From assembly GCA_900315065.1 (NCBI GenBank), contig OMXQ01000015.1:1-38278 (forward strand): a stretch of DNA of 38,278 nt, written 5' to 3'. The stretch comes from an uncultured Erysipelotrichaceae bacterium. GTDB taxonomy: Bacteria > Bacillota_I > Bacilli_A > Erysipelotrichales > Erysipelotrichaceae. How positions within the stretch are numbered: position 1 is the first letter of the stretch; each line of letters starts with the position of its first letter. This document shows, piece after piece, positions 174 to 21,158 of this stretch. The notes beneath the pieces are model-generated. The model saw only the letters and a list, made by a program, of their open reading frames with translations. It had not been told where the DNA came from and made no database searches. The translations under genes were made by a program, and so were the position numbers.

Positions 174-192
174 TGCTATACTATTTATAGCA
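174..192 (+). promoter_or_regulatory. Promoter -10 with overlapping operator-like dyad for the RiPP cassette
   Basis: TGCTATA (174-180) and TATAGCA (186-192) form a perfect 7-base dyad with a 5-base spacer. The sequence TATACT (177-182) inside it is a good -10 hexamer. I see no convincing -35 element 17 bases upstream, as expected for an activated or tightly controlled promoter. The ribosome site GAAGGAGGG follows at 197-205, leading to the ATG at 213. No regulator gene is in the cassette. Confidence 0.5.
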
Positions 193-212
193 TAATGAAG
201 GAGGGAAAGCTC

Positions 213-314
213 ATGTATGTAACACCAGAGATAATTGAAATTGATATTTCTGAAATAGAAATCAATTCAATCCTTGGCTGTGTTTGTGCAACTGGAAAAT
301 CCACACATACATAA
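213..314 (+). CDS. Candidate RiPP precursor peptide, 33 aa with C-terminal CxC
   Basis: This short gene encodes 33 residues and has a strong ribosome site (GAAGGAGGG, 8 bases upstream of the ATG). The first 20 residues (MYVTPEIIEIDISEIEINSI) form an acidic Ile/Glu-rich stretch that looks like a leader peptide. The last 13 residues read LGCVCATGKSTHT, with Cys23 and Cys25 and several Thr/Ser, and look like a core peptide. A terminator follows directly, then genes for a radical SAM maturase, a PqqD-like protein and an exporter, which is the standard arrangement for a ribosomally made, radical-SAM-modified peptide. Thioether crosslinks from the Cys residues are plausible, but nothing in the sequence fixes the chemistry. 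I do not recognise the family. Confidence 0.75.
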   Translation: MYVTPEIIEIDISEIEINSILGCVCATGKSTHT

Positions 315-318
315 CAAT

Positions 319-342
319 AATGCTGCTTAAAGCAGCATTTTT
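319..342 (+). terminator. Intercistronic terminator/attenuator after the precursor gene
   Basis: AATGCTGCT (319-327) pairs with AGCAGCATT (331-339) around a 3-base loop, followed by a T-run ending at 342. It starts only four bases after the precursor stop codon and before the maturase gene. In RiPP operons such a partially read-through hairpin lets the peptide mRNA exceed the enzyme mRNA. Confidence 0.8.
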
Positions 343-356
343 GATGAGCTAACTTT

Positions 357-1631
357 ATGGTAATAAGATATAAAAACATGTATTTAGATACTGAAAATAA
401 CTTTTTCTCACATGACCATCCTACCGATAATCAAATGAAAGTGCCTTATAATTTTAATCTTACAAAAGTTAAAAAGTATTCACCTTACAAAATAAAGGAA
501 ATTGGACTGTGTGTATCAAATTGTTGTAATTTTCGGTGTAATTATTGTATCGATTCTGTTGATAACTCCTCACCTGCTTTTCTTTCTGTAAAGCAAGTAA
601 ATATTTTTCTTGATGAAATTTTTAAAATTTGGAAAATACGCAGTGTAGCTATTGAGCCTCATCCTCTTAAAGTATATTTTTCAGGCGCTGGAGAGCAAAC
701 TTTTTTATGGGATCGCTTTAAAGAAATTGTGCTATTTATTCTCGAAAAAAGCAAGAAACATAATATTCCAATACAGTTTGGAATAACAACTAATGGATAT
801 CTGAAACAAGATGAAATCGAATTTCTTTCTAACAATTTTGACTATATTACAGTTTCTTACGACGGAACACCACAGATTCAAAATACTAATAGAAAAACAT
901 CAACAGGTAATCCCACCAGCAATATTGTTGCAAAGACTATCAATTCATTATTACTTAGCAGGGCTAAGATAATCATCCGCACAACGATTTGGCCTCAGAA
1001 TTTTAAGAATATTGAATCTATTATTTCTTATCTCTATCTGACTTTTGGTTCAAATTTCATTTGGGAGTTAAATCCAGTAATACCTATTGGAAGAGCTGAA
1101 CAATCTTTAACCAGTTACACTGGTTCTTATGATTTTGCTGAGACTTACTCTAAAGCATTAATGCTTTGTAAGAAGTATGGTATTACCACGAATAATGTAT
1201 TTTTCCCAACGTCGCTAAATCAATTATCTTGCGGTGCATATGTAAAATATTGTCAATGTCCATGGCTTCTTCCCTCAGGAGAAATAGTTTCTTGTATTGA
1301 ATCCATGAAATATTCAGACAAGCTAGGGTATTTGAATGACTGTAGTGTAATTTGGAATGACCATATTAATCCTGTTCTAGAAGATAGCACCAGCAATGCG
1401 AATGCTGATTGTGTTTCTTGCTTTGCATATCCATTTTGCAAATGTGGTTGCCCAGCAAGGCGTTTAGAAGAAAAAAATAAAAACAGTATTTATTGGAAAT
1501 GTGAGCAGATTAAAAATTATGTTAGTCGAATATACGATGATTTACTTGCCGGCAAGCAGAACGATTTTATTAAGCTAGAGAAAGTAACGCAAGGCAATAC
1601 TTGCATATACAAATTGGAGAATATTATATGA
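357..1631 (+). CDS. Radical SAM/SPASM-like peptide maturase
   Basis: This 424-residue protein is a radical SAM enzyme. The [4Fe-4S]-SAM motif is CNFRCNYC (Cys57, Cys61, Cys64), followed by the SAM-binding segment FSGAGEQTF in place of the usual GGEP. The C-terminal third is cysteine-rich: CGAYVKYCQCPW, a lone Cys before IESM, then a CxxC...CxCxC cluster and a final WKCEQ. This resembles a SPASM/twitch domain holding auxiliary Fe-S clusters. With the adjacent 33-residue Cys peptide and PqqD-like protein it most likely installs a thioether or C-C crosslink. The ATG at 357 has only a weak GAGC ribosome site; the ATG at 378 is an alternative start. The gene is strikingly AT-rich compared with the rest of the window, which suggests transfer. 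Its TGA overlaps the next gene's ATG (ATGA). Confidence 0.85.
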   Translation: MVIRYKNMYLDTENNFFSHDHPTDNQMKVPYNFNLTKVKKYSPYKIKEIGLCVSNCCNFRCNYCIDSVDNSSPAFLSVKQVNIFLDEIFKIWKIRSVAIEPHPLKVYFSGAGEQTFLWDRFKEIVLFILEKSKKHNIPIQFGITTNGYLKQDEIEFLSNNFDYITVSYDGTPQIQNTNRKTSTGNPTSNIVAKTINSLLLSRAKIIIRTTIWPQNFKNIESIISYLYLTFGSNFIWELNPVIPIGRAEQSLTSYTGSYDFAETYSKALMLCKKYGITTNNVFFPTSLNQLSCGAYVKYCQCPWLLPSGEIVSCIESMKYSDKLGYLNDCSVIWNDHINPVLEDSTSNANADCVSCFAYPFCKCGCPARRLEEKNKNSIYWKCEQIKNYVSRIYDDLLAGKQNDFIKLEKVTQGNTCIYKLENII

Positions 1632-1927
1632 ATGCAGTTGTTATTACTAATCAATATTATTATTTGCAAAGCCTTATTAGTACTGAATATAATGACCAAA
1701 TTATTATTAAGAAACAAGATGGAAACATACTATTACTGAATAAAACAGCATCGGACATATATAAGTATTTATTTGATTCGATAAAATATGAAGATGTAAA
1801 AGTATCGATGATCAATCTATATTTACAAAAAAAATATAAGATAGATCGTGATTTATCAGACGATGTAACAAATTGCCTTCTGAATTTCATTGATAAGGGA
1901 ATTCTTTATGAAAAAACTCCAGAGTAA
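1628..1927 (+). CDS. PqqD-like RiPP recognition element protein
   Basis: A 99-residue protein starts at the ATG overlapping the maturase stop, with GGAG at 1615-1618 as ribosome site. An upstream in-frame start at 1601 has no ribosome site. The pattern DGNILLLNKTASDIYKYL followed by an amphipathic DDVTNCLLNFIDKGIL matches the PqqD/RRE winged-helix fold, which binds leader peptides and presents them to the radical SAM enzyme. No cysteine pattern or catalytic motif is apparent. Its place between maturase and exporter supports the role. The family is very divergent, so the call rests on fold-like pattern and context. Confidence 0.7.
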   Translation: MNAVVITNQYYYLQSLISTEYNDQIIIKKQDGNILLLNKTASDIYKYLFDSIKYEDVKVSMINLYLQKKYKIDRDLSDDVTNCLLNFIDKGILYEKTPE

Positions 1928-3671
1928 TTTAAAATGGCTTTTAGCCCCTTATTTGAAATATGCCAGGAACTATACAATCATTTCCATCCTGTTCTGGGGT
2001 ATCATTCTACCATCAACCCGCTATCTCAATGTCATTTTCCCCGAAGTAATGATCAATACCATTCTGAATACTGATACGTTTTCTAAGATCATAGGTGTCG
2101 TTCTTGGTTTCCAGATTATTTTCTTTCTCATCCCGGCCTTTGAGGATTTCTATAATGCCAGGATCCGTGATAAAGCAGAAGCACGGGTAGAGGCAATGCA
2201 GAAGAAGGAAATCTATGAATTCGCTTCAAAAGTGAAGTATGAGGCAATTGATCAGCCATCTTATTATGAGCACTTTACCTGGACCATTGAGAACTATTCT
2301 GCAAAGAGCCAGGAATGTTTTTCTTTGATGGAGCAGGCACTTTCTGCTGTCGTGATTATTCTTTCTATGTTTGTACTCTTAGCGAAGATCCACCCATTGA
2401 TCATTGTTTTAGCTGCGTTGAGTTCGGTCTTAAGAACCTATGGGTATTTTCAGTACAACAAATACTATGTTGAAAGAGACAAAAGTGTCCTGGAAAATGA
2501 CAGGCGGCTTGATTATTTTCATCGTGTTTTCTACATGAAAGATTATGCGGTTGATCTGAAAACAACCTGTTTGAAACACATATTGCATCGTAAATATGAT
2601 TACAATATCCAGGAAAAAGAAGACAAGATAGAGAACTTTTCATATGACCTGGTCCGATGGGCATGGTTCAGTGATGTCATTTATCATGTTTTCATGATCG
2701 GTATCATTCTTTATGTCGCCTATATGATCTACTCTGGAAAGATCTCGGATGCGGCTTCCTATATTACGATCATGTTATCCATTGAGCAACTGGACCAGAA
2801 TATGTATCAGTTATTTGAACTAATGCAAGACATGAACAAACTAGATATATACGCGGATGAAATCAAAGCATTCTATGACGCACCTGTCGAAGAACAGAAA
2901 ACCGATACAAAAGAACTTTCCCTGCCTTATTCCCTGAAGCTTGAGCATCTGTATTTCCATTATCCCAATTCTTCTTTTACCATTGAAGATCTGAATCTGA
3001 ATATATTACCAGGGCAGAAAATCGCTATTGTTGGAGAAAACGGTGCTGGAAAAACAACACTGATGAAGCTGTTACTGCGCTTGTATGAACCGGAACAGGG
3101 AACGATCCGGATCAACGGTATTGATATTAAAAACATACCACTGAAGCAGCTGAGAAATACCGTCGGCGCAGTACCGCAGAGCGCAAATATATATGCATTT
3201 TCCTGCCGGGAAAACCTGCAATTGTATGCAGAAAGCACGGATGACATGTTGTTGAAACATGCGGAATCTGTTGGATTAACAGATGTGCTGAAGAAAGACA
3301 ATGGAAATCTCAATTCAGAAATGACACGAGAATTTGATGACAACGGTATTGTTCTTTCCGGCGGTGAAGTTCAACGATTAGCACTGGCACGTGTATTGAC
3401 GGGCAAGTTCGGACTGCTGTTACTGGATGAGCCTTCCTCTGCCCTCGATCCGATTGCTGAAAGCAAACTGACAGAGGACTTCAACGAAAAGACGAAGGAT
3501 ATTACAACAATAACAGTCGCTCATCGCTTATCAACGATACGAAACGCCGACTGCATCTATGTTATGAGTAACGGTAAGGTTATTGAATCCGGAACTCATG
3601 AAGAACTGATGAAACAGAATGGGCTGTACAAAGAGATGTTCACAGATCAGGCAAAATACTATCAAACATAA
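1908..3671 (+). CDS. ABC exporter (fused membrane and ATPase domains) of the RiPP cassette
   Basis: A 587-residue half-transporter. Residues 1-330 contain hydrophobic membrane segments, and the C-terminal ATPase has Walker A GENGAGKTT, signature LSGGEVQRLALA, Walker B LLLLDEPSSALD and the H-loop TVAHRL. The ATG at 1908, preceded by AAGGGA, is a better start than the TTG at 1890. The gene overlaps the PqqD-like gene by 20 bases, so they are translationally coupled. There is no N-terminal C39 peptidase domain, so it can export the modified peptide but probably does not cleave the leader; no protease is encoded in the cassette. It may also give self-immunity. Base composition is less AT-rich than the maturase. 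Confidence 0.88.
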   Translation: MKKLQSNLKWLLAPYLKYARNYTIISILFWGIILPSTRYLNVIFPEVMINTILNTDTFSKIIGVVLGFQIIFFLIPAFEDFYNARIRDKAEARVEAMQKKEIYEFASKVKYEAIDQPSYYEHFTWTIENYSAKSQECFSLMEQALSAVVIILSMFVLLAKIHPLIIVLAALSSVLRTYGYFQYNKYYVERDKSVLENDRRLDYFHRVFYMKDYAVDLKTTCLKHILHRKYDYNIQEKEDKIENFSYDLVRWAWFSDVIYHVFMIGIILYVAYMIYSGKISDAASYITIMLSIEQLDQNMYQLFELMQDMNKLDIYADEIKAFYDAPVEEQKTDTKELSLPYSLKLEHLYFHYPNSSFTIEDLNLNILPGQKIAIVGENGAGKTTLMKLLLRLYEPEQGTIRINGIDIKNIPLKQLRNTVGAVPQSANIYAFSCRENLQLYAESTDDMLLKHAESVGLTDVLKKDNGNLNSEMTREFDDNGIVLSGGEVQRLALARVLTGKFGLLLLDEPSSALDPIAESKLTEDFNEKTKDITTITVAHRLSTIRNADCIYVMSNGKVIESGTHEELMKQNGLYKEMFTDQAKYYQT

Positions 3672-3672
3672 A

Positions 3673-3714
3673 AGGTCGCCGAATCTTAAATGATTCTGGC
3701 GACCGCTTTTGTAT
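3673..3714 (+). terminator. Terminator of the RiPP cassette
   Basis: GGTCGCCGAATC and GATTCTGGCGACC form a long stem with a single bulged T and a short AT loop, followed by CGCTTTT. It lies two bases after the exporter stop and marks the end of the cassette before the insertion sequence. Confidence 0.8.
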
Positions 3715-3732: not shown

Positions 3733-4826
3733 ATGAATAACCTGACTCCTGTTGAAGTTGAGTTCATCAATGCCTGTATTTCCAAGATTTACAAGCAGAA
3801 GATACTTCTGACACTCAGAACTTCGAGAATCTTGAAAGTGCTGTGTGTGAGTGTTCTCATTGCCATTCAAAGCATTTTATTAAGAACGGACACATCAGAT
3901 CTAATGGCAACCAGAGATACTTGTGCAAGAACTGCGGTGCTTCCTTCAGTGCCTCAACGAATACATTCTTCTCTCATTGCCGGAGTTCTTATGATACCTG
4001 GGCAGAATTCATTGCCTGTGAGTTAAATGATGACACTCTGAAGCAGGAATCTCTTCATACCCAGCGCAGTGTATCAACCTGCTTTAATATGCGTCATATG
4101 CTTCACGACGCTGCTTCCAGAAGAACTTCTGATCATCTTCACGGTCTGGTTGAAATTGATGCGACATACTCACCAATCAATCTCAAAGGAACCAAAGAAG
4201 AGAATATGCCGAGAATTTCAAAACCGAGAGGCAAGCACAAGACCAGTAGTATCAATAAGAAACTCAGCGGTATCAGCCATCACAAGGTTTGTATCATTTC
4301 AGCCATTGATGAAGATGACAACATGTTCTTCAAGATTGCAGGTCTTGGCCCTGAAAGCCAGGAAATGTATGAGAAATTCGCTGATCACTTTGAGAAAGAT
4401 GTCACCCTGGTTTCCGATGACAGGCCAGCCATTCTCAATTTCGCAGATAACCATAAGTTTTTCAAAGACACAATCCCTGTGATTGCCACAAAAGATACTT
4501 ACAAAACACCGAACGGCAATACCCTGGCAGAGAGCAATGAACTCCATCGGGAATACAAGGACTTTGTCCGTAAGAAACACGGCATCTCAATCAGACATAC
4601 GCAAGGATACCTTGACTGGCTTGTATTTAAAAAGCAGGTCAACTACTCATATGAACTCAGAAAGCAGAAATCAATATCTTACATGAAGGTAATGACAGAT
4701 AAATCGATGCTTAAATTCAAAGATATTTGTAAGTTGGAACTTCCGATAGACTTGCGGAAAGCGTACGAAGAATACCACTATGGTATATTTGCGGCTACTA
4801 ACTCAGATACCGCCAACAACACTTAA
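3733..4826 (+). pseudogene. IS1595-like transposase, frameshifted near the N-terminus
   Basis: The main frame is open from 3762 to a TAA at 4826. It encodes an N-terminal zinc ribbon (CSHCHSKHF...CKNCG) and an ISXO2/IS1595-type catalytic domain with EIDATY, VTLVSDDRPAI and LAESNELHREY...HTQGYLDWLVF. The natural N-terminus (MNNLTPVEVEFINACISKIY) is in another frame starting at ATG 3733, and the two join only by a -1 shift near 3795-3800. I see no slippery heptamer, and no ribosome site precedes 3733, so a deletion is more likely than programmed frameshifting. A GTG at 3843 could start a shortened protein, but this begins inside the zinc ribbon. No left terminal inverted repeat was found. Confidence 0.8.
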
Positions 4827-5404: not shown

Positions 5405-8128
5405 TTACTTTCTGTGATCCGGAATACCGGTAATAATTTCAGGCAGCTCGTCATCATCTTCTTCAAGGAAGGTAAACGGCGGCATTTCTGCATCCTCTTC
5501 TGTCTTTTCTTCCGGCTTTTCTTCAGCAGATTCTTCGACTTGTTCTGCAGGCTTTTCTGTTTCTGCAGCAATTTCTTCCGGCTCAGTTTCAGTGTCAGAT
5601 TCAGCTTCTGTTTCTTCTGGTTCTTCTTCCGCAATATTCAGAATCGGTTCTGCAGCAACAGGCTCGTCATCAGCCGGCTTTTCTTCTTCCTCAGCAGAAA
5701 CACTGACTTCTGCAGGTTCCTTTTCTTCTTCAGTTTCCTGCGTTTCAATGACAATTTCTTCTTCTGCTTCTTCTGCAGGAGCTTCTGTATCGACCTGTAC
5801 TTCTTCTTCAGCAGGTTCTGCTTCCGGTCTGATCGGATCAAGCTTGATATAGTCAATGCCAGGATTACGGTATAAGGAAGGATCAAAGACACGTTCCGGT
5901 TTTTTCTGCGGTTTTACTTCTTCCACAGGTTCTTCTTCTGTTTCTTCCGCATCCAGTGCAGCTTCTACATCATCTTCTGTTTCAGCCTTTTCATCATGGG
6001 TGTAATTTCTGGTGATAGCAGCCATCGGATCATCAACGTCACCGCCGCTTGTCAATTCATCCAGAACATCTCCCAGCTGCAGGACTTCGGTAGCACCCGG
6101 GTCTTCTTCACCCTGGAAACGGTAATCCGCAAACGGATCTACGACATCTTCTTCCGGCTTTTCTTCTTCAGCCTCTTCTTCTTCTGAAGTTTCTGTTTCT
6201 TTTTCAGCAGCTTCATTTGCTGCATTGTTGGCGAAGATCGGAACTTCGGTTGTATCATCATTGCCGCTTTCTTCAACCGGCATATTGAGGAAATCAGGAA
6301 CATCATCCACTGCTGGTTCCGGCGGGAAGTCAGGTGTTACCATCTTTTCTTCTGTTTCTGCTTCCGCTGTTTCTTCTGTCCTCTCTTCAGCTTCTTCGCT
6401 AACTTCAGCAGGTACTTCTGTTTCTGCTTCTGTATTTTCTTCAACCGGAATGCTTTCGGTTGTTTCTTCTTCTGTTTCTTCTTCAATGACCGGCTTTACC
6501 GTTTCAATTTTTTCAGTTTCAGCAGTCGGCGAAACATAAACTTCTTTCTTTTCTTCTATCTCTTCAACCGGCTCATCCAGATCATAATCGGCGACTTCAG
6601 CCTTTCTCAGACGTACGCAGATGTAAGGCTTTGCCGGTAAAGCAAGCCGGAAGGAACCATGATAGATGCCAGCCTTTCTGACCGTCATATCATAAGTATC
6701 GATAATTTCTGCAACATAGTCAGTATCTGCATCAACGGAATAATCACGATAAGAAGGTCTCATGAAACTGTAATAGAAGAGATACTGGCTCTTATTATTC
6801 TGTGCCCATTCGCTTTCCGGTACAGCTTCTATGCTGTCCCATTCATTTTCAATTCTCATCAGACCTGTACCAGGCACTTCTTCAAGAATCTTTCTCAGGA
6901 AAGCAGCCCGCTTCCAGCTTTCGCCCTGAAGCCTGCCGCCATGGGCCCACCAGATATGATCCTTGTCCGCAAGGAAAGTTTCACCATGAGTCGGATAGCC
7001 GCCCCGCATCGCAGTTTCCCACATGCGTCTGGTTTCTTCTTCTGCTGTCAGATTGCCCCAGCCGAACGGCAGATCACCTTCATAGCCAAGCTCTTCCATG
7101 ACGACTGGCTTCTGATACATTTCTCTGTAAGTATCGGTTAATTCTGCACCCTTGTAGAGATCTACTCTCTGCATGGAAACATGCGTGATCCATGGTCTGG
7201 TCTGATCATAAATTTCACGGCAGTTATGGATGGAACGCAGATGATGATTGACATCCTTCTTTACCAGAACGGAAGCCAGTGCTTCCCAATCTGCGATGGA
7301 CTTGCCTGCAACAAGATCCCATTCATTAGCCAGAGACCACCAGACATTATGATAAGCACTGAGACGATTGATCAGATACTTCAGATAGAAAGTATCTTCT
7401 TCTCTGCTCATCTTTGAGAAACCCCATCTGTCATACGGATGGAAAAGAATCAGATCTGCTTCAATGCCGGCTTCACCAAGTTCGGCAACGCACTTTTCAA
7501 GACGCTGGAAATAAGCCGGATTGAAACGATGGAAATCAAAATCATTTCCTTCGCTCTTACCCATATATGCCAGCATGTTATCGTCATTCAATACAGAAGC
7601 ATCCATTGCTTTTCCTTCATATGGGAAAAGAACTGGATCCTTGAGATTATAGAAATAGTGCTTCGGGAAAACACAGAAACGGACCTTGTTGAAACCGGAA
7701 GCCTTCAGGGACTCCAATGTCTCACTGACTGTTTCATCATCCTGCAGCCACCATACATAAGCAGTTGTGCCCATTGGTACATATTTTGTACCATCTTCAT
7801 AACTGAAGTGGAAAGTACCTGCCTTGCGTACAGGACCATGATTTTTTTCATCTGCTTCTTCAACAATAAAGGCACCGCTCAAAGCAGTATCCAGGAAGGA
7901 AGCCCTTAATACAAAGTGATACCTGCCCGCAAAGGAAGGCATAAAGCGGATCTTATATACGCCGTCACCATCGTAGAAACCTTCGACTGTGACGCTTTCA
8001 TTCTTACCGGAGAAAATACCAGTCAGTGACTGATCAATAAAAGGATTGCCTTCTGCCGGTCCGTGAAGAACGATCTCAAAGACATCCCAGCGTTTAACAC
8101 TTGATGCAAAATCCTGTTTATCTGTCAT
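5405..8128 (-). CDS. DUF5060/DUF4038-type glycoside hydrolase with long acidic tail
   Basis: This 907-residue protein starts with a beta-rich N-terminal domain (DUF5060-like, residues 1-100). A TIM-barrel of the DUF4038/GH140-like type follows (about 105-430), carrying WWSLANEWD (likely acid/base Glu) and VVMEELGYEG (likely nucleophile Glu). A DUF5605-like beta domain ends near residue 525. Relatives act on plant or host glycans, but the substrate cannot be inferred. There is no signal peptide, so it is probably cytoplasmic. The last 380 residues are an extremely Glu/Asp-rich, Lys-poor, low-complexity tail with a few ordered-looking islands such as DPFADYRFQGEEDPGATEVL. That tail is not part of the usual family architecture. 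The ATG at 8128 is preceded by AGAGAGG. Confidence 0.8.
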   Translation of the reverse strand: MTDKQDFASSVKRWDVFEIVLHGPAEGNPFIDQSLTGIFSGKNESVTVEGFYDGDGVYKIRFMPSFAGRYHFVLRASFLDTALSGAFIVEEADEKNHGPVRKAGTFHFSYEDGTKYVPMGTTAYVWWLQDDETVSETLESLKASGFNKVRFCVFPKHYFYNLKDPVLFPYEGKAMDASVLNDDNMLAYMGKSEGNDFDFHRFNPAYFQRLEKCVAELGEAGIEADLILFHPYDRWGFSKMSREEDTFYLKYLINRLSAYHNVWWSLANEWDLVAGKSIADWEALASVLVKKDVNHHLRSIHNCREIYDQTRPWITHVSMQRVDLYKGAELTDTYREMYQKPVVMEELGYEGDLPFGWGNLTAEEETRRMWETAMRGGYPTHGETFLADKDHIWWAHGGRLQGESWKRAAFLRKILEEVPGTGLMRIENEWDSIEAVPESEWAQNNKSQYLFYYSFMRPSYRDYSVDADTDYVAEIIDTYDMTVRKAGIYHGSFRLALPAKPYICVRLRKAEVADYDLDEPVEEIEEKKEVYVSPTAETEKIETVKPVIEEETEEETTESIPVEENTEAETEVPAEVSEEAEERTEETAEAETEEKMVTPDFPPEPAVDDVPDFLNMPVEESGNDDTTEVPIFANNAANEAAEKETETSEEEEAEEEKPEEDVVDPFADYRFQGEEDPGATEVLQLGDVLDELTSGGDVDDPMAAITRNYTHDEKAETEDDVEAALDAEETEEEPVEEVKPQKKPERVFDPSLYRNPGIDYIKLDPIRPEAEPAEEEVQVDTEAPAEEAEEEIVIETQETEEEKEPAEVSVSAEEEEKPADDEPVAAEPILNIAEEEPEETEAESDTETEPEEIAAETEKPAEQVEESAEEKPEEKTEEDAEMPPFTFLEEDDDELPEIITGIPDHRK

Positions 8129-19556: not shown

Positions 19557-21077
19557 TTACTCTTCGATGTTGTTTCTCTGTTCCGGAGCATCGATGCTTG
19601 TATCGATGTGGTTTGTGCCGTCTGCGTGTTCGAAGGCAGCGAGTTCCGGATGCTGACGCTTTTCAGCTGTGAAGTTTTCATAAGAAGGTCTCTTATGTGT
19701 TTCTTCAGACCAGATACGATCAGCGACCGGCTTCCATGTCTTTGCATATTCAACTGTCTTTGCACAGAGGTGTTCAACTTCTTCAGGAGACTCTTCATTT
19801 GTCTGATGAGCACCTGTTTCATGAACCATCTGTACCAGCAGAGACGGATTTTCAAGCATCGGGCATGGTCTCAGGTGGTTGCGGTTAAACGGCTGGCCTT
19901 CATGATATGCCATGAACAGCGGAGACTGGAGCATTTCCAGAATTGTGTTGTCACGGATATTTGTATTGGAGAAGTGGATGAATACACACGGTTCAGCATC
20001 GCCGTTAGAGTTGATGTGGAAGTAGTTACGACCACCGGCAATGCAGCCGCCGACGAATTCGCCGTCGTTCTGGAAGTCCATCGGGAAGAATTCAATATCG
20101 GATTCTTCTGTACGGATGGAACGGATGCGGTTGATCATGTATTCTCTCTGTTCAGGTGTCGGCATCAGTTCAGGAACTGCGTTGTTTCCGACCGGCATCA
20201 GATGGAAGTAGAATCCATAATGAGCGCCCTTTTCTGTTAACAGCTTGAAGAAGTCATCAGATGTAACTGCTTCAACATTTGCCTTTGTATAGCAGATGGA
20301 TGTACCGAAGATAATACCATGAGCCTTCAGGAGGTCCATAGCCTTCATGACAGCTGCATAGTGGCCTTCACCACGACGGGCATCGTTTGTATCCGGTGTA
20401 CCTTCAATGGAAAGCATGAAGGACAGGTTGCCGAGCTTCTGAATCTTTTCACAGAGCTCTTCATCAATCAATGTAGAGTTGGAATATGCAACGAAGAAGC
20501 AATCCTGGTGTTCTTCACAAAGACGCAGAACATCATTCTTTCTGACCATTGGTTCGCCGCCTGTCAGCATATACAGGTGAGCACCCAGTGCCTTGCCTTC
20601 AGTAACGATCTTGTCCATCTCTTCATATGTCAGAGAAGACTTGTGACCATATGTACCGGACCAGCAGCCTACGCAATGCATATTGCAGGCAGAAGTCGGA
20701 TCAAACAGAATCAGCCAAGGAATGTTGCAATTGTACTTCTTGCGGTTTTCACGAATTGTCTTTGTGCCTCTGAAGAAGGATTCATAACCCAGATCCAGCA
20801 GCATCATCTTTGCATAATGAGGATCAGCATCATCAATGATGTGGTTGATCATGCGCATCCATCTGTGGTTAGGATCGGATACATACTTTCTGACGCCTTC
20901 AATCTTGTCATGAGCTTCCGGATAAAACTTTTCAGCCATGTCAACGATCTTCAGATACGTTTCTGTACGTTCGTTATAATCACCTTTTGTCTTCAGGGAC
21001 TTGATCAGCTGATCCGCAACAACTTCAACAGCCTTGCGTTCAGCAGCGTGTGTCAAATTTTCAATAGCTCCTGCCAT
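19557..21077 (-). CDS. Radical SAM protein of unknown substrate
   Basis: A 506-residue enzyme. An all-alpha N-terminal domain (1-115) precedes LILFDPTSACNMHCVGCWSG, the radical SAM CxxxCxxC motif (Cys131, Cys135, Cys138), followed by the SAM-binding MLTGGEPMVRK and LSIEGTPD. A C-terminal region with GGCIAGGRNYFHINSNGDAEPCVF is SPASM-like, with few further cysteines (RPCPMLEN, HLCAKT). The architecture is common in Firmicutes but I know of no assigned reaction. The ATG at 21077 has AGGAGGAG 5 bases upstream, better than 21092. It is monocistronic, between two terminators. No small peptide gene lies beside it, so it is probably not a RiPP enzyme. Confidence 0.8.
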   Translation of the reverse strand: MAGAIENLTHAAERKAVEVVADQLIKSLKTKGDYNERTETYLKIVDMAEKFYPEAHDKIEGVRKYVSDPNHRWMRMINHIIDDADPHYAKMMLLDLGYESFFRGTKTIRENRKKYNCNIPWLILFDPTSACNMHCVGCWSGTYGHKSSLTYEEMDKIVTEGKALGAHLYMLTGGEPMVRKNDVLRLCEEHQDCFFVAYSNSTLIDEELCEKIQKLGNLSFMLSIEGTPDTNDARRGEGHYAAVMKAMDLLKAHGIIFGTSICYTKANVEAVTSDDFFKLLTEKGAHYGFYFHLMPVGNNAVPELMPTPEQREYMINRIRSIRTEESDIEFFPMDFQNDGEFVGGCIAGGRNYFHINSNGDAEPCVFIHFSNTNIRDNTILEMLQSPLFMAYHEGQPFNRNHLRPCPMLENPSLLVQMVHETGAHQTNEESPEEVEHLCAKTVEYAKTWKPVADRIWSEETHKRPSYENFTAEKRQHPELAAFEHADGTNHIDTSIDAPEQRNNIEE

Positions 21078-21158
21078 AAAACTCCTCCTCAAAACAATCT
21101 ATAAAAAAACTGTTTCATTTTTGAACATGGTTACTTTACCACTTAAAACAACATTATG

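Follow-up and report, generated by a model that had tools for sequence, protein, structure and literature searches.

What do the four genes at the left edge of contig OMXQ01000015.1 make, and where did they come from? The contig comprises 38,278 nucleotides from an uncultured Erysipelotrichaceae bacterium (assembly GCA_900315065.1; 2.52 Mb in 144 contigs) and was analysed over its entire length; it is called the window below. Close to its start, all on the plus strand, lie a gene for a 33-residue peptide, a hairpin and genes for a radical S-adenosylmethionine (SAM) enzyme with a SPASM domain, a PqqD-like protein and an ABC exporter (Table 1). Judged from the sequence, this is very probably a real cassette for a ribosomally synthesized and post-translationally modified peptide (RiPP), with product and function predicted. 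The parts look to be known ones in a new combination, in which a leader docking signal of the lasso-peptide type is joined to a radical SAM enzyme and a peptide with two cysteines. This reading rests on the start of the leader, where the peptide has a docking signal of the kind seen in lasso and related peptides.

An earlier note on this DNA had proposed a RiPP cassette with a radical SAM/SPASM maturase, a RiPP recognition element (RRE) and an exporter, and this is backed by the anatomy of the locus and, independently, by a relative whose genes stand in the same order. The strong ribosome site that it saw is in place 8 nt upstream of the ATG of the short gene. The three longer genes overlap as it described, by 4 nt (maturase and PqqD-like genes) and 20 nt (PqqD-like and exporter genes), and all four reading frames are intact. 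The immediate terminator that it placed after the precursor gene is present as a hairpin, but is weak as a terminator on the plus strand, with four T among the eight bases past the full stem; a terminator consensus scan scored the minus strand only. Because the T tail on the plus strand is short, an attenuator fits better than a full terminator. The putative promoter has no good −35 element, and the site is also absent from the results of a promoter scan.

Table 1. Features of the cassette and its flanks, with positions in the window.
Feature	Position	Strand	Basis
3' end of IS1595-family element, truncated at the contig end	1..99	+	positions 16-99 match the terminal part of the IS copy at 3843-4826 (82% identity)
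Possible extended −10 promoter, TGCTATACT	174..182	+	read from sequence
Ribosome-binding site AAGGAGG	198..204	+	sequence, 8 nt upstream of ATG
Precursor peptide, 33 aa, MYVTPEIIEIDISEIEINSILGCVCATGKSTHT	213..314	+	open reading frame, ribosome site and leader motif
Attenuator-like hairpin between precursor and maturase genes	319..339	+	fold −13.9 kcal/mol, z −3.2
Predicted radical SAM/SPASM peptide maturase, 424 aa	357..1631	+	Pfam PF04055 E 1.3e-9; TIGR04085 SPASM above cut-off
Putative discrete PqqD-like RRE, 99 aa	1628..1927	+	class PqqD profile 15.1 bits
ABC exporter, MsbA-like, no C39 peptidase, 587 aa	1908..3671	+	Pfam/NCBIfam searches
Strong hairpin terminator, operon end	3674..3704	+	−20.5 kcal/mol, z −6.0
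IS1595-family transposase, right flank	3843..4826	+	NCBIfam NF033547 73.3 bits (cut-off 75); NF050000 above cut-off

The precursor leader starts with MYVTPEI, such that YVTPEI occupies residues 2–7; the core, ...ILGCVCATGKSTHT, contains two cysteines, Cys23 and Cys25, in a CxC arrangement. The calculated monoisotopic mass of the complete 33-mer is 3578.76. YVTPEI fits the motif [Y/W]xxPx[L/V/I/A/F/Y] that is bound by discrete lasso RREs, and equally the [Y/W]xxPx[L/V/I] leader of the linear polyphosphorylated peptides (LPP), for which the Tyr and the Pro are required for RRE binding (PMC13381572). Among the 47 short open reading frames of the window that have a ribosome-site motif, this precursor is the only one with [YW]xxPx[LIVAFY] within its first 14 residues. 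The same motif is found in one of 112 such frames in 15 other loci, and this single case is a precursor-like gene, MYRKPLILE..., at another RRE locus in the genome of the window, where it adjoins NTP_transf_5, an RRE-containing protein and an ABC exporter. The full LPP consensus YxxPxVLxHQxIxFETxxS is not found in the precursor, where YVTPEIIEIDISEIEINS lacks HQ and FET. No match to the precursor is found in Pfam or NCBIfam, and its core contains no Trp, Tyr or Phe.

In the maturase the radical SAM motif CxxxCxxC is formed by Cys57, Cys61 and Cys64, with about 45 residues preceding the radical SAM domain, and the SPASM cysteines are the seven at positions 292, 313, 352, 355, 361, 365 and 382. 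The best subgroup profile is that of PapB (NF047865; 87.3 bits against a cut-off of 340), followed by that of SCIFF maturases (TIGR03974; 75 bits against a cut-off of 425). With scores this far below the cut-offs the enzyme belongs to neither subgroup, and none of the curated radical SAM subgroup models is passed at its cut-off. Among proteins of solved structure, CteB (PDB entry 5wgg) is the closest in sequence. The AlphaFold2 model, which is good in the barrel only, matches the folds of anSME, CteB, SkfB, ChlB and SuiB. At the level of sequence the maturase is thus nearest to thioether-forming enzymes, yet outside every curated group.

The RRE was called with a smaller margin. The label 'PqqD-like' in the earlier note is not carried by Pfam, where the 99-residue protein matches PqqD with an E value of 0.15, below the cut-off; it is upheld narrowly by a profile made from 24 PqqD-family proteins of the same class. 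This profile scores 15.1 bits for the window protein and 14.8 bits for its counterpart beside the maturase relative, compared with 13.4 bits for the best of 4000 shuffled controls, a margin of 1–2 bits. As MAFFT did not align the two short proteins on their own, a joint alignment with the PqqD proteins of the class was used. In this alignment Asn38 and Asp79 fall on the LN and DV positions, and they may be equivalent to Asn33 and Asp70 of LppB. The predicted secondary structure consists of an N-terminal helix followed by the order E-E-E-H-H-H; a discrete PqqD-like RRE is expected to have a sheet of three strands and then three helices. The low-confidence AlphaFold2 model gave no significant match in Foldseek, and VIA-align listed the lasso B1 protein (PDB entry 6jx3; Z of 2.1 only, rmsd 6.1, 67 aligned residues) among unrelated chains. 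A sequence search of the PDB with both RRE candidates returned unrelated chains only.

The search for close relatives of the maturase covered 273 genomes of the family and 316 of the order, two phylum and class draws, the family of the genome that gave the match described here, and genome contigs, viral contigs, plasmids and phages. The whole search produced one clear relative (32% identity, E 2.8e-53), in CANQVC010000016.1, a metagenome-assembled genome of an uncultured Bacilli bacterium (G522). All 3 + 7 Fe–S cysteines are conserved in it. The G522 cluster has the order precursor, maturase, 106-residue PqqD-like protein, AAA/HprK-like protein, exporter, S24/S26-like protein and NTP_transf_5, where the S24/S26-like and HprK readings have weak scores. 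Its precursor of 71 residues, MENYVTPDMAVYEG..., starts with MENYVTPDM... and contains six cysteines. A Cys peptide with YVTP hence adjoins both maturases, two cases in all, and the two cores share the unit C-x-[ST]-[GQ]-x-x-[TS], which is CATGKST in the window and CSSGAIT and CSSQAVS in G522. A second copy of the G522 exporter, frame-broken, lies at a contig end in that genome (L038, 4525–6087).

Within the genomes of the same order, maturase matches are weak at most and the cassette is not seen in the other genomes. No clear relative turned up in 138 genomes from the class to which Flintibacter belongs, a result that shows little because that search had no positive control. The plasmid matches that were inspected belong to different kinds of radical SAM locus and are distant (24–33% identity).

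A cassette of similar build is present in a genome of the same genus (G024; locus L037, 4765–7989). It shares with the window cassette a short Cys peptide (31 residues, MVVLKKGEVVKVHCYSIFVCGPCSHLGGCRG), a hairpin (z −5.5), a radical SAM/SPASM maturase and a related exporter. It differs in having a maturase of the TIGR04463/CefB type, which scores below those cut-offs and aligns with the profiles from their first positions, and in having neither a separate RRE gene nor a YxxP leader; the 31-residue peptide matches no family model. The window exporter is 32% identical over its full length to that of G522 and 30% identical to that of G024. The exporters of these three radical SAM cassettes group together (support 0.95, from few sequences), apart from generic ABC pairs. 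No C39 peptidase domain was matched in the domain search of the window exporter, in agreement with the earlier note, which saw no protease domain.

The origin of the cassette is reflected in its composition. The GC content at third codon positions (GC3) is 0.18, 0.25 and 0.21 for the precursor, maturase and RRE genes, compared with 0.482 (s.d. 0.038) across 23 further genes in the window, so the first three genes look foreign and AT-rich. The exporter gene has a GC3 of 0.447, with 0.48 reached already across its first 50 codons, and the composition thus breaks at the RRE/exporter border despite the 20 nt overlap. Both insertion sequences (IS) of the IS1595 family that flank the cassette have the same orientation. 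About 35 IS1595-type 3' ends occur in the genome, mostly at contig ends, which suggests an element of high copy number at which the assembly breaks up. The cassette looks to have been acquired horizontally and recently, and the IS1595 sequences may have mobilized it; these flanks and the composition break add to what the earlier note described.

Taken as a whole, the locus is probably best explained as an acquired RiPP cassette in which RRE-guided formation of Cys thioethers is followed by export. In the manner of lasso and LPP recognition elements, the discrete RRE would dock on YVTPEI in the leader and present the C-terminal Cys core to the SPASM enzyme. The maturase would then most likely link Cys23 and/or Cys25 to carbons of nearby residues through thioethers of the ranthipeptide or sactipeptide type. 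From the comparison of the two precursors, the acceptors are most plausibly Thr27 or Ser30/Thr31, as CATGKST has a unit in common with CSSGAIT and CSSQAVS. The ABC protein would export the product, and the leader would either be cut by an enzyme encoded outside the cassette or stay uncut, the two outcomes that the earlier note allowed for; the G522 cluster encodes a candidate peptidase of S24/S26-like type (weak score), for which the window cassette has no counterpart. That the product acts as a secreted antagonist (bacteriocin) or as a signal is a guess.

Several observations weigh against this explanation. No Asp or Glu follows Cys23 and no acid lies downstream of either cysteine, and for this reason the Cys–Asp/Glu chemistry of PapB (PMC9413430) is inapplicable in that direction. 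The window and G522 cores can be aligned over a short stretch only, and a single clear relative leaves two precursors to compare, so that core and acceptors cannot be fixed by covariation. The RRE is called from weak sequence scores, and its model (pLDDT 49) has no clear RRE match. The lack of an acid acceptor also speaks for a RiPP cassette with radical SAM chemistry other than thioether formation (epimerization, a C–C or C–O crosslink or another reaction), where the CxC would be left for a disulfide or a metal. A maturase that scores below every subgroup cut-off has a chemistry that cannot be read from its sequence, which agrees with this alternative as well. We nevertheless consider it rather unlikely, since the top two profiles and the nearest solved enzyme by sequence are all thioether-forming, the sole clear relative has a six-Cys core, and the window core has no Trp, Tyr or Phe for the usual cyclophane chemistry.

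There are two further alternatives. A decayed or inactive insertion would be in keeping with IS1595 sequences to the left and right, a foreign composition, a position at the contig edge and the lack of the cassette in the other genomes of the order, but four intact frames, the gene overlaps, the terminator and the Fe–S cysteines have all been kept and make decay improbable. The other is an LPP-type peptide that is mainly modified by phosphorylation through a host kinase encoded elsewhere, with the radical SAM enzyme as an accessory. The LPP share with the window cassette the YxxPx[V/L/I] leader, a discrete RRE (a weak call here) and an MsbA-like exporter, and with the G522 cluster the weak S24/S26-like peptidase, NTP_transf_5 and the AAA/HprK-like gene; without its maturase, this cluster amounts to the LPP core set as defined by Popov et al. 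2026 (PMC13381572). The window cassette differs in having a radical SAM maturase and a Cys core. Between its two IS sequences no HprK-like kinase, SpI peptidase or NTP transferase is found, and the remainder of the LPP consensus (HQxIxFETxxS) is missing from its leader; phosphorylation as the main modification is very improbable for these reasons. A literature search, mostly of papers available outside subscription, for a radical SAM enzyme combined with an LPP-type system led to PMC13381572 only, which has no mention of radical SAM.

The cassette also has features in common with other known systems. The ranthipeptide pair PapA/PapB (freyrasin) and the SCIFF pair CteA/CteB resemble it in the SPASM enzyme and the Cys core and give the best matches to profiles and solved structures; in PapB and SCIFF systems, however, the RRE is fused, whereas in the window only about 45 residues precede the radical SAM domain and the putative RRE is separate, and the window maturase scores far below the subgroup cut-offs. 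The window precursor has no PapA-type CX3D motifs and is not a six-Cys SCIFF peptide. In PQQ biosynthesis (PqqA/D/E) and in the StsB/StsC sactipeptide system, a radical SAM/SPASM enzyme is paired with a discrete RRE, which recognizes leaders of the W/Y/LxxP type (PMC12710340). With its putative RRE the window cassette shares this arrangement, but its maturase has no match above cut-off to the PqqE or StsB models, and core and hosts differ. Searches with Pfam and NCBIfam found neither a lasso macrolactam cyclase (C) nor a B2 protease among the cassette genes.

The earlier note had suggested a new family with an unmatched precursor. This is right in so far as Pfam and NCBIfam hold no match and the maturase lies below every curated subgroup cut-off; it goes too far in that the leader has the YxxPx[LIV] motif known from discrete lasso, LPP and PQQ recognition elements, and in that the cluster around the related maturase is LPP-like. 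More tentatively, at somewhat less than an even chance, the two loci may represent an undescribed RiPP family in which lasso/LPP leader–RRE docking is combined with a ranthipeptide-like radical SAM enzyme. This family would exist in the window as a minimal, mobile set of four genes, and in the uncultured Bacilli bacterium as a complete LPP-like cluster that includes partners resembling a kinase, a peptidase and a nucleotidyltransferase. The precursor–maturase–RRE block would have been swapped as a unit in front of a host-like exporter.

Other loci contain related genes. In the same genome as the window, a separate LPP-like locus (L079, 499–5799) beside glycosyltransferase-like genes encodes a 468-residue RRE-containing protein, an ABC exporter, NTP_transf_5 and two precursor-like peptides that carry MYRKPL[IV]LE close to the N terminus. 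Two short CxC peptides, MNNFNIVSPKEFVNFYPVCDCTINAFPGCGGTTNVGCI and MQNFSGLMRPMGINIVPKCSCEINVLKCLCTYS, are encoded directly upstream of an ABC exporter in another genome (G463; L041, 6921–9023), with no adjoining radical SAM gene. The window itself has a second radical SAM/SPASM protein of 511 residues (19557–21092, minus strand), 16 kb from the cassette. Its nearest models are of the heme b synthase, mycofactocin and NirJ type, all below cut-off, and no convincing short precursor adjoins it. At 5405–8128 (minus strand) an apiosidase-like protein is encoded that has a long, Glu-rich, low-complexity C-terminal tail.

Since each part is of a known kind, the surprise is limited. In its four-gene form the cassette is compact enough for expression as a whole and its precursor has two cysteines only, so leader dependence and crosslink position would be easy to test. 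If the explanation proposed here is true, the leader-reading module of lasso peptides, LPP and PQQ is also used in Bacilli by a radical SAM enzyme that modifies Cys, and docking module and modifying enzyme would therefore have been recombined in nature.

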